A stretch of 64,000 bases of DNA from Verrucomicrobiota bacterium (GTDB lineage: Bacteria; Verrucomicrobiota; Verrucomicrobiia; Chthoniobacterales; Chthoniobacteraceae). The stretch spans positions 100,714 to 164,713 of the forward strand of contig VFJQ01000056.1 of the NCBI GenBank assembly GCA_009885995.1. Direction: 5' to 3'. The position numbers and the translations under genes are program-made. This document shows, piece by piece, positions 4,848 to 56,908 of this stretch. Within the stretch, counting starts at the first letter, position 1; every line of letters starts with the position of its first letter. The notes beneath the pieces were generated by a model that saw nothing but the letters and a program-made list of their open reading frames with translations, was not told the origin of the DNA and searched no databases.

Positions 4848-5402
4848 TCAGCGATTAGATTCTGCATAAGTGAAGCGCGCTCGAAGAAACCAGTATTGAG
4901 GTGACTCTCTTTCGATCTCCGCATTGGTTTTGGAAACTTTGCGATAGTCGGTCCATGCGGCAGCTCGAAGGAACAGAACAATCTCCTCGCCTATTTTGGG
5001 CTGTTCAATTCGCTGACGCTGCTGTGTGACGTTCGCACCGTCTGCAAAGATGTTCTCGAGGAGATAGGTGATACTGTTGCCGTCCACGCCGTAAGTGAAC
5101 TGAACGTGCTTGGACGGCGTTGGTGCTAGCAAGTGCTGGTTGCGGACAGTGAATGAAAGTGTTGGCTTCATCGTCGGTCTCAGGCTCCTCGTAACTTGGG
5201 TCTTGTCGTCACCATCGGCGGTCTTGATGTCAATCCAGCATTCAGCAATTACAGGTCGGTCGAAAGTGAAGGTGACTCTTCGAGATTCGATACCCAACTC
5301 GGAAGCCAACTCTGCAACCGAAAGCTCGCCATCGACGGGATCTGCTGCGAGTGTCGATACGGAACAAGTATGCAAGATTAGCAGAGCAATCGCGGCATTC
5401 AC
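4848..5402 (-). CDS. hypothetical secreted protein (candidate integron gene-cassette product)
   Basis: GTG start at 5402 gives a signal peptide VNAAIALLILHTCSVSTLAADP. The longer ORF in the track (to 5516) would translate the attC-like site and is less likely. Confidence 0.6.
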   Translation of the reverse strand: MNAAIALLILHTCSVSTLAADPVDGELSVAELASELGIESRRVTFTFDRPVIAECWIDIKTADGDDKTQVTRSLRPTMKPTLSFTVRNQHLLAPTPSKHVQFTYGVDGNSITYLLENIFADGANVTQQRQRIEQPKIGEEIVLFLRAAAWTDYRKVSKTNAEIERESPQYWFLRARFTYAESNR

Positions 5403-5417
5403 GGTGCGTGTAGCAGC

Positions 5418-5497
5418 GTCTAACGACCCCAAGCTCAGCGACCGCGGAGTGCGGCGCGGCACCTGCATGGCGAGCGCCTGGTTATGTGTCGTTGGGT
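5418..5497 (-). other. attC-like recombination site
   Basis: + strand GTCTAAC (RYYYAAC) at 5418-5424 and GTTGGGT (GTTRRRY) at 5491-5497, 80 bp apart. The outer 10 nt GTCTAACGAC/GTCGTTGGGT pair fully if G-U is allowed. Lies between two same-strand ORFs, with the next start codon about 20 nt away. Confidence 0.55.
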
Positions 5498-6039
5498 TAC
5501 GGCTTGGTAGCTTCATTTGGAGCGTTGCTTGGCGTGGCGCTTTGATTCTGTTGAGCCTCTGCGCTTTTCAATTCGGGAACCTTTGGGGCTACCGGGTTGC
5601 CAGCGGTGACTTTAGGCTTCCGAGCGTCGTAGAAGTCATCCGCAGCCTTCCGTGAGACTCCGCCTATGAAACCGGATATGACCAAGGAGAGAATCCACAC
5701 GATAAATGCGCCAACAGCCAAAAGGGTCTTGGAGCGTTTCCATTTTGGTTTGCGGAGTTCAGCGATTGCCGACTCCCATTCGTGCGGCTTTGTCTGGTTG
5801 ATTCCATACGCCGTATATCCATTAGAGGCTACTGGGAAGACTAGCTTGAGGTCTTCAAGGTGTTTGAATACACCCTCCGCTTCGATTTGGGAAAGCGGTG
5901 GTTGGGGCAGGCTTTCGTCTTTGAGGTTGGACGCCGTTAACGTGTTTGGCATGAAGGCGAAATCAACGGCTCGCTTGGACCACAGCCACGCGACAAAATC
6001 CACAGCGGGTCGCTTGGGAGGGTCTTTATGGTTGCTCAT
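5497..6039 (-). CDS. hypothetical membrane protein (candidate integron gene-cassette product)
   Basis: ATG-started ORF with one clear TM segment (TLLAVGAFIVWILSLVISGFIGG); RYYYAAC motif 6063-6069 lies about 25-30 nt upstream of the start. Confidence 0.6.
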   Translation of the reverse strand: MSNHKDPPKRPAVDFVAWLWSKRAVDFAFMPNTLTASNLKDESLPQPPLSQIEAEGVFKHLEDLKLVFPVASNGYTAYGINQTKPHEWESAIAELRKPKWKRSKTLLAVGAFIVWILSLVISGFIGGVSRKAADDFYDARKPKVTAGNPVAPKVPELKSAEAQQNQSATPSNAPNEATKP

Positions 6040-6226
6040 ATTACTGATGACGTTCGCAAGTCGCCTAACATACAGATTGCGCCGAGCTTTTGCGGCGTAT
6101 GCCTCGAAGGTGAGTGCGGCATGGGCGGAGTTCAGTCACGATGGGTTACTCTGGCAAGCGCTTACTTCGGACTGGCATCGGTCGCAATCGTGCGGCACCA
6201 GCGCGGGATAGACCGCATTCTGCGAC

Positions 6227-6745
6227 TCAGCGCGACATGAACTGCCGGAACGACTCGACGTAGGCGGCGTAGGCGATCATCTCGCCTTGCGTCACGGGGT
6301 CACCGAAGGTGCCGGTGAAGGCGGGGAAGGTGGCGGGATTTTTGGCGGTGTCGGCGATGGCGGTGTCGAGTTGGGTGAGGGTGACTTCGCCGGGGGCGCC
6401 TCGCGGGATGGAGAAGGTGAAATGAACCAGCGTGCCGTCGAAGCTGACGGTCGCGGTCGCGGGGTCGTCGGGGTCGAGCGTGTTGACGGCATCGACGACG
6501 GCGTTGGCGAAGGGTTGACCGGGGGTGCCGGGCGCTCCGTCCGCGCCGCCGGCACCGGCGGGGCCGGGGTCGCCTTGATCGCCTTTGTCGCCCTTTTCAC
6601 CGGGGTCGCCCGGAAGGCCCTGAGGGCCGGCGGGGATGGCGGCGATGAGCGCGGTGGTTTCGCTGCGCAGGCCGTTGAATTGGTCGCGCAGTTCGTTGGC
6701 GTCGATTTCGGTCTGGGGAAGGGGTCGGGTGGGGTCGAAGGGCAT
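6227..6745 (-). CDS. collagen-like (Gly-X-Y) repeat protein
   Basis: GPQGLPGDPGEKGDKGDQGDPGPAGAGGADGAPGTPGQP followed by a non-collagenous C-terminal tail. Confidence 0.85.
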   Translation of the reverse strand: MPFDPTRPLPQTEIDANELRDQFNGLRSETTALIAAIPAGPQGLPGDPGEKGDKGDQGDPGPAGAGGADGAPGTPGQPFANAVVDAVNTLDPDDPATATVSFDGTLVHFTFSIPRGAPGEVTLTQLDTAIADTAKNPATFPAFTGTFGDPVTQGEMIAYAAYVESFRQFMSR

Positions 6746-6856: not shown

Positions 6857-7066
6857 AACGGACTGCGCGGAAGCGGCGCGCAGTCGCTCGCCGTGGGGGC
6901 GCAACTGCTCGGAACTGGGGCGCAACCGCCCGGCGGCGATGAGCAGTCGCGCGGGGTGGGCGAGCAGGTGCGCGGAGGCGGTGAGCAGGTGCGCGAAAGC
7001 GGGGCGCGGTCGCTCGGGCGGTCCGGGCAGGTGCGCGCGATTTTCGCGCGACCGCGCGGCGGCAGC
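6857..7066. repeat. degenerate 21-bp-period tandem array (about 9-10 units)
   Basis: Units start at 6878, 6899, 6920, 6941, 6962, 6983, 7004, 7025 and 7046, e.g. gcgcagtcgctcgccgtgggg / gcgcaactgctcggaactggg / gagcaggtgcgcggaggcggt. Confidence 0.75.
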
Positions 7067-7725: not shown

Positions 7726-8193
7726 ATGAAAACTTGGCGCAAGCACCCGGCGCATCCGCCCGTTCTTCAGCGAGACCATCAGCCGGTGCTTGTTTTCGTC
7801 ACGGCTTGCACGCAAGAGCGCAGGCCGTTGCTCGCTCGAGAGGAATGTTGCGCATTGCTCAGACGCTCATGGGCGGAGGCGACGAGTTGGCGCGTCGGTC
7901 GGTTTCTCGTCATGCCCGATCATCTCCACTTGTTCTGCGTGCCCGGTGAGTTGCCAGTGCGCGCGTTGGGGCAGTGGGTTCGCTATTGGAAGACGCTGGT
8001 CTCACGTCGTTGGCCGTGGCCGGCGGAACAGCCGGTCTGGCAATTGGATTTCTGGGACACGCAGATGCGCGACCATCATCGATACGACGAGAAGTGGAGT
8101 TACGTGCGGATGAATCCGGTCCGCGCGGGGTTGGTGGGGGCGGCTGAGGATTGGCCGTTTCAAGGTGAACTGAACGGCTTGAGCTGGCATTGA
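7726..8193 (+). mobile_element. REP-associated tyrosine transposase (RAYT; Y1_Tnp/TnpA_REP family)
   Basis: HUH-type motif MPDHLHLF, C-terminal YDEKWSYVRMNPVRAGLV; flanked on both sides by related REP hairpins. Confidence 0.9.
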
Positions 8194-8338: not shown

Positions 8339-9412
8339 ATGAGCAAACGCTTCCGCATCGCCGGGATCAACTTCGACCACTTCCACATGGGGGATCTCCT
8401 CCGCTACGCGCACGAGCATCCGGATGCGGAGATCGTGGGCATCTGCGACGAGCAACCGGAGCGGATGCGCGACGCGCAGCGGAACTTCGGCATCCCGCTC
8501 GACCACGTCTTCACCGACGTGGACGCGTGCATGGAGAAGACCAAGCCGGACCTCGTGATCCTCTGCCCCGCGGCGGCGCGGCATGGCGAGTGGACGCGGC
8601 GCGTGGCGGCGCATGGCGCGCACATCTTGATGGAGAAGCCGTTCGCCGGTTCGCTCGCGGAGGCGGACGCGATGGTCGCGGCGCAGGCGAAGAGCGGGAA
8701 GCTGCTCGCGATCAACTGGCCGTCGCGCTGGATGCCGGGCTACATCACGACGAAGCGGCTCATCGACGAAGGTGTGATCGGCACGGTGACGAGCGTGAAC
8801 TACTACGGCGGAAATCGCGGCCCGCTCTACCACGGCGCGGACAAGCTCGAGAAGATCCCGACGGCGGAGGAGAAGGCGGCGAGCTGGTTTTACCATCGCA
8901 GCGCGGGCGGTGGGTCGCTGCTCGACTATATGGGTTACGGGACGACGCTCGGGACGTGGTTCCACGGCGGACGCAAGCCGATCGAAGTCACCGCTGTGGT
9001 CGATGCGCCGGCGGGGCTGGAAGTGGATGAGCACAGCATCGCCGTGGCGCGCTACGACGTGGGGCTGTCGAAGTTCGAGACGCGCTGGGGCACTTTCACC
9101 GATCCGTGGACGATCCAGCCGCAACCGAAGTGCGGCTTCGTGGTGTGCGGGACCGATGGGACGATCGCGGCTTACGACTACGCCGAGCGCATCCGCGTGC
9201 AAACGCGCAACAACCCGAAGCGGAAGAAGTGGAACGTGGACAAGGTCGGCGCGCCGTTCGAGAACCCGATCCAATACATGCTGCACGTGCTCGAGGGCGG
9301 CGAGTTCTTGAAAGACCCGCTCCACCCGGAGACCGCGCGGATCGGGCAGCAGATCGTTGATTCCGCCGTGCTCAGCGCCCGCGAAAAACGCACCGTCCCA
9401 CTCGTCGCATGA
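8339..9412 (+). CDS. Gfo/Idh/MocA family oxidoreductase
   Basis: MSKRFRIAGINFDHFHMGDLLRYA...ILMEKPFAGSLAEADAMV (EKP motif). Confidence 0.85.
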   Translation: MSKRFRIAGINFDHFHMGDLLRYAHEHPDAEIVGICDEQPERMRDAQRNFGIPLDHVFTDVDACMEKTKPDLVILCPAAARHGEWTRRVAAHGAHILMEKPFAGSLAEADAMVAAQAKSGKLLAINWPSRWMPGYITTKRLIDEGVIGTVTSVNYYGGNRGPLYHGADKLEKIPTAEEKAASWFYHRSAGGGSLLDYMGYGTTLGTWFHGGRKPIEVTAVVDAPAGLEVDEHSIAVARYDVGLSKFETRWGTFTDPWTIQPQPKCGFVVCGTDGTIAAYDYAERIRVQTRNNPKRKKWNVDKVGAPFENPIQYMLHVLEGGEFLKDPLHPETARIGQQIVDSAVLSAREKRTVPLVA

Positions 9413-43116: not shown

Positions 43117-46100
43117 CTATGGAAAGATCGGCGTGGTCCTGTCGATCGAGCGCAGGAAGGCGATGAGGTCCGCGCGTTGGGAGCCACTCGACACGAAGTG
43201 GACGCGGACGCCGCCATTGCTGTCGCGGCTGCCGTTGAGCACCTCCTCGAGCGTCTGCGCGAGGCCGTTGTAGTAATACGGCGCCGTCTCATTCACGCTC
43301 AGCAGCGAGGGGAAGTTGAAGCCATTCGCGCCGAGCGGATTGATCGCCTGCGAGATGTCGGCGCCGTTGAAGCGCAGTTCGTTCGTCCGCCCGCCGGCGA
43401 GGGTGAAGGTGCCGACGTTGACCAGCACGCCCGGAATTTGCCCGGCGACCGGACCCTGGGTGAAGGTCTCCCGCAGTTCGGCACCGATGATCTTCTCGTC
43501 GCCGAGCGCCAGTAGCGGGTCATTCGTCGGCGAAGGCGCCCCCGGGAAATCCACCACCGAGCGGCTCCAGCGTTTGCCGCCGTGGCAGGTCGCGCAGCTC
43601 TGCTCGGCGATGACGAGGCCCACCTGGCCGAAAAGCGCGCGCCCGCTTACCACCGCAGCGCTCGTGGGATCGCCCACGCCACGCACCGACCGCACTTTGC
43701 GGGCGACCCACGTTTCGATCGCGTCCTGCCGCGGGTCGCGCTTGAAGTTCACGACCGGCAGGAAGTTCCCGACGGGGATGACGGTGTTCACTCCGAGTTG
43801 CCGCCGGGCGCTGGGGAGATTGCCGCGCGTGACCCAGGTGCCGCTCGGTGTCCCGCCCGGGCCCGCCGGGGAGCCGTTGATGTTGATGGTGTATTCGAAG
43901 ACCGTCGTCTGGTCCGCGCCCACGCCATCGACACCGCCGATGACGTAGATCTGGTTCGTCGTCGGCGAGCCGCCGATGCCGAACTGCGCCCGCGCCGCCG
44001 GCATCGAGGTGTGGATGGTCAAGATGGGATCCACCGTTTGCGCCAGGTATTCCCGGACGTCGCTTTGCACCACGCCCGCCTCATTCACGCCACCGATCAC
44101 GAAGATGCGCGAGCTGGCCCCGCGCTGCGCCGCGGCGGCGCCGTGGTGGCGCAGCCCGATGAAGCCCACGGGTGAAAAGGCGGTCCACGTCCCCGGCCCG
44201 CGCGGGTCGGCCTGGAAGCGCTGCACCCCGGCGGAGAGGCTCGGGCTCGCGACGCCCTCGGCGCTCGTATTTCCGGCGACGACGTGGACGAGCTGGAGCG
44301 GTTCCGCCGTATTGCCCCCGCCGGCCACGGCGGTGCCGAATTGCGCCACCGCCGTCAGCAGCGGAGCGACGGTCCGCCAATGGTTGGTCGCCGGGTTGAA
44401 CTCCTGCACGAGCGCCGACGGAGCGGTGGCCGGGTCGGTGCTCGTGTAGCCGCCGATGGCGTAGATACGCAGCCCTTTGGCCGTCTGCACCGCCGCCGCA
44501 CCGAGCGAATGCCGCGAGGTGAACCCTGCGTGGCTGCGCGGGATGAGCTTGTTCGTGCGCACGTTGAACTCCTGCACCGTGGCGGAATTTTTCACGAGGT
44601 CGCCCGCGCCGCTGTTCGTCGCGGCAGAGCGTCCGCCGATGATGAGAATGCGCTCGTCGGTGAGTTGCACGGTGGCGAAGTCGCGCCGGTCGAACGGGAG
44701 CGTCGGCAGCGCTTTGCCGGGCTTGAAGAAACTGTCCGCGCTGACCGCCCCGGTGACTTGGTTGAACACTTCGATCTTCGTCTGCCCGGTCGGGCTGCTG
44801 GCCGAGCCGCTCGCGCCGCCGATGGCGTAGAAGAGCCGGTCGTCGTCGATGAGGCCGCGTCCGCCGAAGACGTTCCGCGTGTTCAGCTCGAAGTCCTGGT
44901 TCTCATCGCGCACGGCGCTCCAGTTCAGGATGCGCTGCTGGAAGCCGTGCGCCGTTTTGCTGAAGGTGCCGTCGAGCGAGATCGTCTGCCGCGGGCCGCC
45001 GTCGAACATCCACGTCACCCCGTCGGCGCGTCCGCCCGGGTGGCAGACGACGCAGCCGCCCCACCCCTCGCTCGACATGCGGTCTTCCGGGCCGCGGCCG
45101 GTGAAGAAGAGCTCCGCGCCGAGCTGTGCCTTCCCCTCCGCGCTCATAGCCGGAGGCAACGATGCGCTCTTCACGACCGCGACGACGCTCGGCGCGGTGC
45201 CGTTCGTGATGTCCACGACCGAGACGTTGCGCGTGATGAAGTTCGAGACGTAAGCACGCGTGCCGGTGCTGTTGATCACGACCCCGCGCGGCGCTTTGCC
45301 GGCAGCGAGGGTGGTGCCGGGATTTTCCAAGTCCACGCGGACGATCTGGCTCGGCCCGGCGACCAGCGGCGCGCCGATGGTCGGGATGGTCTGCCCATCC
45401 ACGGTCAACCGCACGAGGAGGTTGCTGTTCTGGATCGCGACCCACGCATCGGCGCCATTCGGCCGCCACGCCATGGCCACTGGATTGGTCATGAAAAGGC
45501 GCGGCGCCGGCGTCGTGGCGAGGTTGATGCCCTGGTTGAGATTCAGCGGCGCGGTCCGCCGCACGGTCGGGTCGGTCTGGCCGGCCATCACTTCCCCGCG
45601 ACTCACGACTTCAAAGACCGACACCAGCCCCTGCGCCATCTGGTTGAACCGCAGCGGCCCATTCGGCGACGCGCCGGTGCTGATGACGAGCGCCCGGCCA
45701 CTGGTCGGGTGGATGGCGATCGCGGCGAGCTGGTTCGGGTAGGCGCCGGTCGGCGTGGTGAAGGTCTGCGGATTGGTCGAGGCGATGTTCGGAACCTGCC
45801 CCGGCCCCGGCGCGAGCTTGCCGTTGGAGTTGAAGCCGGTGTTCGCGAGCGGCGCGAGCCGGATCGGGTTCGCGGTCGCGAGCGGCTGGAAACCGGCGGT
45901 GTCGAACGCCACGACGCGCCCCTCCCGCTGGTCGTCCTGGCCTTCCTCGTTGAAGGTCTTCCCCGCCCGGAGCTGCCCGAAAAACATCGCCACGAAGACG
46001 GTCTCATCCGCGTCGTCCGCGTCGCCGTCGTTCGTGATCGCGATCGACCGCGGCGACGTGCCGAAGGCGCTCAGGTCATACGGCTGTCCGATGACCACCG

Positions 46101-56496: not shown

Positions 56497-56679
56497 CACG
56501 CCCCGAGCCCCCCCGGCGAAGTCAGCGCGCAACAACTCACCGACGCCATAGCCACCACCGCGCAAAACCCAGCGAGCTTCCCCGCCTACACCGGCGATTT
56601 CAGCGACCCGACCACGCAGGGCGAGATGATAGACTTCAAAGCCTACGTCGAGTCGATGCGGCAGGCGCTGGTGCGCTGA
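56497..56679 (+). pseudogene. C-terminal tail fragment of a collagen-like protein (paralogous to 6227-6745)
   Basis: PPGEVSAQQLTDAIATTAQNPASFPAYTGDFSDPTTQGEMIDFKAYVESMRQALVR* versus APGEVTLTQLDTAIADTAKNPATFPAFTGTFGDPVTQGEMIAYAAYVESFRQFMSR*. Confidence 0.8.
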
Positions 56680-56692
56680 GGGCGCGCAGCGC

Positions 56693-56908
56693 CTAGTCCA
56701 GCGGCGAGCGCACCCCCAGCCCCGGCTTATTGAGCACGTGCAGATAGATCTGCCTCGTCGCCACATCCCGATGCCCCAAAAGCTCCTGCACCGTGCGCAC
56801 GTCGTAACCCGCCTCGAGCAGATGCGTCGCAAAACAGTGCCGCAGCACGTGCGGCCCGACTCGCTTGGCGATACCCACTTTCCGCGCCGCCTCCGCTTCC
56901 GCGACAAG
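56693..56908 (-). pseudogene. integron integrase (IntI-type tyrosine recombinase) C-terminal remnant
   Basis: [70 protein letters not shown]; HxxR...LLGH...Y core and IntI-like [14 protein letters not shown] ending; no N-terminal or central region present. Confidence 0.75.

Follow-up and report, generated by a model that had tools for sequence, protein, structure and literature searches.

The question raised by this locus is whether two hypothetical ORFs, which lie side by side within a 64,000-nucleotide stretch of a Verrucomicrobiota genome (the window), are integron gene cassettes and, if so, in what state the cluster survives. A sequence-only reading had proposed integron-type cassettes separated by an 80-bp attC-like site, with no integrase adjacent. 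The analysis reported here leads us to regard the region, with high confidence, as a decayed integron-derived cassette cluster. Read along the minus strand, its anatomy is best described as an attI-like leader, cassette 1 (ORF A), a broken attC and cassette 2 (ORF B), whose attC appears to be lost. The features concerned, together with the gene upstream of them, are the following:

6227-6745, minus strand: collagen-like gene (Pfam Collagen), ending with a stop codon 158 bp before the first R box
6063-6225, minus strand: putative attI-like leader, ending in the R box GTTAGGC (6069-6063) and homologous to the leaders of contigs C71 and C132
5497-6039, minus strand: ORF A, gene of cassette 1, 180 aa with a hydrophobic segment, starting 23 nt after the R box GTTAGGC
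5418-5487, minus strand: damaged attC, with R'' ACATAAC at 5487-5481, an R' arm intact to GTTAGAC (5424-5418) and the L''/stem arm deleted
4848-5402, minus strand: ORF B, gene of cassette 2, 184 aa from a GTG at 5402, starting 15 nt after GTTAGAC

Both ORFs are on the minus strand, and the earlier impression of a lower GC content is borne out, since the block 4850-6070 has 53-55% GC against about 64-70% in the flanks. The ORF starts, 15-23 nt past the R boxes, have the spacing typical of cassettes, and the start codon that had been placed about 20 nt from the site is the GTG of ORF B, which opens with a signal-peptide-like segment. Neither ORF matched Pfam or NCBIfam, neither has a relative among 39 family genomes, and none was found for ORF B in the genome_contigs collection. 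Orphan ORFs are usual for cassette genes. Judging from their length, spacing and placement of start and stop codons, ORF A and ORF B are probably coding. A gene cassette carries an accessory ORF between recombination sites that varies between genomes, and both the spacing and the lack of relatives agree with this description.

The site between the two ORFs is recognised as an attC by homology. When 5380-5520 was compared by BLAST with all 181 contigs of the genome (5.94 Mb), four further matches emerged, on contigs C77 (87% over 66 bp, E 3e-15), C51 (83%, E 2e-13), C174 and C71, all of them with cassette-like surroundings; over 66-69 bp, the R' arm of the window site is 83-87% identical to other sites of its own genome. 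With up to three mismatches allowed, the 25-mer GTCGCTGAGCTTGGGGTCGTTAGAC from this arm has a single occurrence in the window and none in 100 shuffles, and it is matched at four further places of the genome. Beside intI in several relatives, arrays of GCCTAACCATGCGCTGCAGCGAAC...GTCGCTGAGCTTGGGGTCGTTAGGC sites alternate with ORFs. That an ordinary inverted repeat between two genes mimics attC ends by chance is a reading to which we give almost no weight: R-box-like heptamers are common (41 on the plus strand of the window) and the site folds poorly, but the length of the homology, the lack of the 25-mer in shuffles and the matching arrays that adjoin integrases in relatives all speak against it.

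A strict regular expression (RYYYAAC...GTTRRRY with at least five Watson-Crick pairs) missed the window site and most real sites, and was therefore abandoned for a covariance model. This model, of the bottom strand, was built from 14 attC sites taken from arrays beside integrases in relatives and none from the own genome; it comprises 31 pairs, 11 of which show compensatory changes, and two single unpaired bases, in one arm and six pairs apart. It matched at 5418-5522 with 26 bits (E 1.2e-4 in 118 kb and 0.006 genome-wide, both from a short calibration), so that the site at 5418-5497 is the only credible match in the window. The score is weak compared with those of intact sites, which reach 122 bits, and comes almost entirely from the R' arm. 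Two further window matches were set aside, one at 8550-8664 (17.6 bits) which is weak and lies inside an oxidoreductase-like ORF, and one at 45834-45891 (12.4 bits) which is weak. No match was obtained after ORF B. Outside the window, six matches in the own genome correspond to intact or half-intact sites, on C51 (114 bits), C77 (93), the left end of C51 (74), C71 (68), C174 (48) and the contig end of C77 (45). Homologous sites, a model trained on integrase-linked arrays and orphan ORFs together support the proposal of integron-type cassettes with an attC.

Comparison with intact sites also reveals the damage. The alignment places the R'' box at ACATAAC (5487-5481), followed by CAGGCGCT (family version GCCTAACCATGCGCTGCAGCG), and finds the R' arm complete from about GCCATGCAGGTGCC to GTTAGAC; on the opposite side ATAACCAGGCGCT corresponds to R''-CATGCGCT, and the L''/stem arm between is absent. 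The best local match on the R'' side exceeds 500 of 500 shuffles. The ends first proposed, ACCCAAC...GTTAGAC at 5497-5418, are both present and R' was rightly identified, but ACCCAAC (5497-5491) shares bases with the ORF A stop codon and precedes R''; it fits the RYYYAAC...GTTRRRY consensus but is not the homologous box. Of the two boxes defined by homology, GTTAGAC conforms to this consensus and ACATAAC departs from it. The pairing claimed for the outer 10 nt is likewise partly right, as 10 of 10 pair on the plus (bottom) strand, there only with G.T wobbles, but only 7 of 10 on the minus strand. The bottom strand of cassettes is the one expected to fold. With mononucleotide shuffles as reference, the bottom-strand fold of the window site is no better than random (z +0.1); the same test gives z -3.9 to -6.4 for five intact sites. 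The site is thus homologous to the attC of integrase-linked arrays but internally deleted, and we read 5418-5497 as a real attC by descent which is damaged and no longer a working one. Because the L''/stem arm is deleted and the fold is no better than that of shuffles, it is predicted not to be efficiently recombinable.

The second R box that had been reported, GTTAGGC at 6069-6063, is present before ORF A, but it ends an attI-like leader rather than an attC, and its assignment to a second attC was rejected on the ground that this leader is homologous to leaders elsewhere in the genome. Indeed, the 176 nt ending at this box match contigs C71 and C132 of the own genome. Window and C71 leaders are 72% identical from -89 to +11, the similarity stopping just past the R box, and the cassettes beyond differ. 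A short inverted repeat (CGCCG..CGGCG) stands just before the box. The leader is weakly similar to the integrase-adjacent attI of a relative, G028 (shuffle z 3.7), and its layout is similar to that of other leaders of the family. A simple attI-like motif (CTAAT, 2-8 nt, GTTAG) reaches four or five of five matches in 11 of 17 leaders and at 6% of 300 background GTTRG positions, a count which is descriptive and no test, the motif having been chosen by eye from the same leaders before counting. The window leader has three of the five matches, and its own L box is degenerate. With moderate confidence, we consider from these similarities that 6063-6225 is attI-like.

Alternatively, an integrase encoded elsewhere could have inserted the cassettes off-target, at a chromosomal secondary site of attG type, and the leader would then be ordinary DNA with a G/TT target. 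Off-target insertion is an accepted origin of integrase-less clusters (PMC8618304), attG insertion has been reported according to passages of PMC12444791 and PMC12901181 that cite it, and the clusters do sit in unrelated surroundings. We nevertheless hold this to be very unlikely. Random secondary sites would not have 50-230 bp in common ending at the R box, and here the leader is common to the window and C71 up to that box, and partly to C132. Moreover, the integrase-less leaders of relatives resemble integrase-adjacent attI (G026_C100 and G027) or follow truncated 3' ends of intI.

The lack of an adjacent integrase, noted from the outset, holds for the site; a C-terminal fragment of an integron integrase (IntI) is nevertheless found in the same window, 51 kb from the cassettes, facing part of a second collagen-like gene:

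56518-56679, plus strand: collagen-like gene, C-terminal part, converging with the IntI remnant across a gap of 13 nt
56693-56899, minus strand: 5'-truncated integron integrase, C-terminal 68 aa only (TIGR02249 match)

The remnant scores 103.5 bits over positions 248-314 of TIGR02249 (106 bits in another scan), keeps the second catalytic box and the tyrosine, and is 78% identical to the IntI of G028. The own draft genome yielded no complete IntI, and apart from Xer-like proteins this remnant is the only IntI piece in it. The collagen fragment that faces it is 64% identical to the collagen C-terminus at 6230-6388, and in the window, as at the C51 and C132 clusters, a collagen-like paralogue stops some 135-165 bp short of the first R box. 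The collagen gene was nevertheless rejected as a strict integron partner, as the genome has nine copies and the one at C115 is without visible integron feature downstream. An ancestral order of collagen gene, intI, attI and cassettes, copied to several places before the loss of intI, may be suggested; it stays a suggestion because the intact order was not found in relatives, no collagen gene being present downstream of intI in G017, G023 or G028.

Two other features near the cassettes are worth recording. A 21-bp unit is repeated in tandem 3.4 times at 6931-7002, just before the start of the collagen-like gene, and ORFs of short-period repeats resembling these occur near the integrons of G023 and G028 (loci L038 and L044). 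On the plus strand, the ORF at 7726-8193 gave a weak match to Y1_Tnp (IS200/REP-associated transposase) with an E-value of 0.054, under the cut-off.

The history that we propose for the cluster can be stated briefly. As is known for integrons, the substrate of IntI is the bottom strand of attC in its folded form, and the joint is made at the G/TT of the R box. An integron integrase would have acted on the attI-like site at 6063-6225, placing the cassette ORFs beside it, so that cassette 1 (ORF A and its attC) adjoins the leader and cassette 2 (ORF B) comes next. Later, the intI next to the leader would have disappeared, a deletion would have removed the L''/stem arm of the attC that separates the cassettes, and cassette 2 would have been left with an unrecognisable attC. 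Since the integrase is gone, one attC damaged and the other unrecognisable, the cluster should now be fixed in place. Both this past insertion by IntI and the present inactivity of the cluster are what we infer.

Compared with sedentary chromosomal integrons, the locus shares the R''/L''/L'/R' layout, the single ORF per cassette and the distance of 15-23 nt between R box and start codon, and the intact sites of the family are bottom-strand hairpins with two unpaired bases; it differs in that the window site is without its L''/stem arm, cassette 2 without attC and the array without a neighbouring integrase. With no full-length intI beside the array, the locus does not qualify as a complete integron. 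Like a CALIN, it has cassettes without intI, but a CALIN has at least two attC without nearby intI and the covariance model recognises one in the window cluster, which is below the default threshold of two attC of IntegronFinder (as stated in PMC12444791); the cluster also has an attI-like leader. This leader resembles an attI in preceding the first cassette directly, and in much of the family CTAAT, which is L-like, stands a few nucleotides from GTTAGGC, in some cases beside intI. It departs from an attI in that several copies exist per genome, most of them without intI, and in the degenerate L box of the window copy. Cassettes of the Delta-attI type (PMC12901181) likewise have attI-derived sequence away from its integrase; there, however, the setting is mobile integrons, with the attI fragment downstream of the cassette gene (PMC12901181), whereas here it heads chromosomal clusters.

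The family of this genome provides the wider setting. IntI was detected in 12 of 40 family genomes at E <= 1e-60 (in 11 of 40 above the curated cut-off of TIGR02249), and attC sites of the window type were found with the covariance model at E <= 0.001 in 30 of the 40, that is in 12/12 genomes with a strong IntI and in 18/28 others. In genome G013 a leader of about 229 nt is present five times, with 80-88% identity between copies, and in the best pair the match stops precisely at the R box. This leader matches the DNA directly past the intI stop codon in G002, where intI is co-directional with the cassettes, and the last 20-45 intI codons are retained beside the leader in two G013 copies and one G014 copy. 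G002 itself has three 5'-shortened intI copies. The leader of G026 on contig C100 and the integrase-adjacent attI of G027 are 78% identical from -43 to +10. In this family, integrase-less clusters thus often seem to be headed by an attI-like leader of their own; there are several such leaders per genome, and some have a 5'-truncated intI adjacent. A 23-mer of the R' arm recurs in named genomes, in 65 stretches belonging mostly to Verrucomicrobiota (Chthoniobacter, Spartobacteria, Akkermansiaceae, Terrimicrobiaceae, Pedosphaera and Opitutus), with a few other carriers (Cyanobacteria, Nitrospiraceae, Gallionella, Acidobacteriaceae and others), and in four contigs of a viral collection.

Several attI-like leaders per genome could also mean that the clusters are not relics, a functional IntI acting in trans on several attI copies and the whole forming one distributed integron with many landing sites. 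Some leaders do head well-preserved arrays with no nearby integrase (contig C25 of G002, 110 bits; C51 of the own genome, 114 bits). We judge this quite unlikely for want of a complete IntI in the own genome, and with the window attC broken; in G017, furthermore, integrase-free arrays reach at most 78 bits against up to 116 for the integrase-linked array. A broader form, in which scattered attI-like landing sites, each with a short array, are served in trans by one integrase, present or lost, is tentatively considered but rather unlikely; if true, the window cluster would be one decayed platform among them. These comparisons concern draft genomes whose contigs often break at integron repeats. 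The own genome is a 181-contig draft, 91% complete, in which five of the six better-scoring sites are at most 650 bp from contig ends, and an intact integrase or longer arrays may for this reason be absent from the assembly. Sites close to contig ends are found on C51 (both ends), C77 (end) and C174 (start), where longer arrays were probably lost in assembly gaps.

Taken alone, the decayed cluster of the window is an ordinary relic of a known kind, since integrons have already been recorded in Verrucomicrobiota (PMC8618304), and it matters mainly as a view on integrons outside Proteobacteria. Loss of intI, rearrangement and off-target insertion have been proposed as origins of CALIN (PMC8618304), and intI pseudogenes are common, with a survey putting them at about one third of intI genes (PMC2426708). 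The mildly new part, worth specialist attention, is the family-wide pattern of multiple leaders, for which we found no paper describing several attI sites per genome in Verrucomicrobiota within a partial coverage of the literature; the main taxon-specific attC study makes no mention of Verrucomicrobia (PMC8352920). As attI is poorly described outside class 1 integrons and undetected by IntegronFinder (PMC9024848), repeated attI-like leaders at integrase-less clusters could easily be missed. If confirmed in closed genomes, they would allow the copying of platforms to be tested against random off-target insertion as the origin of such clusters.

Two recurrent sequences of the family arrays were noted in addition. 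The 5'-truncated intI copies (L072 321-632 and 3690-3976, L099 3893-3759, L046 9488-10057, L047 3350-4024) retain the 3' end together with the leader and attI-like site, and are truncated at different points. In G013, C3:3-824 and C8:3-467 (L050 and L101) begin inside intI at the same codon, which suggests that intI is present in more than one copy and that the assembly broke at the 3' end they share. The other sequence, CGCCTAACCCCTATGaAAGgtGTCAAG, is conserved directly past the last ORF of clusters in several genera (L004 715-745, L080 5167, L028 150, L113 5236 and 4438, L157 1929, L171 14069, L115 3423), and consists of an R''-like box followed by an end sequence that these clusters share and that is apparently non-coding; the four loci scanned gave no Rfam match for this array-end sequence. 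At L113 5236, an attC arm lies about 85 nt past CGCCTAACCCCTATGaAAGgtGTCAAG, as if an element had inserted into an attC.
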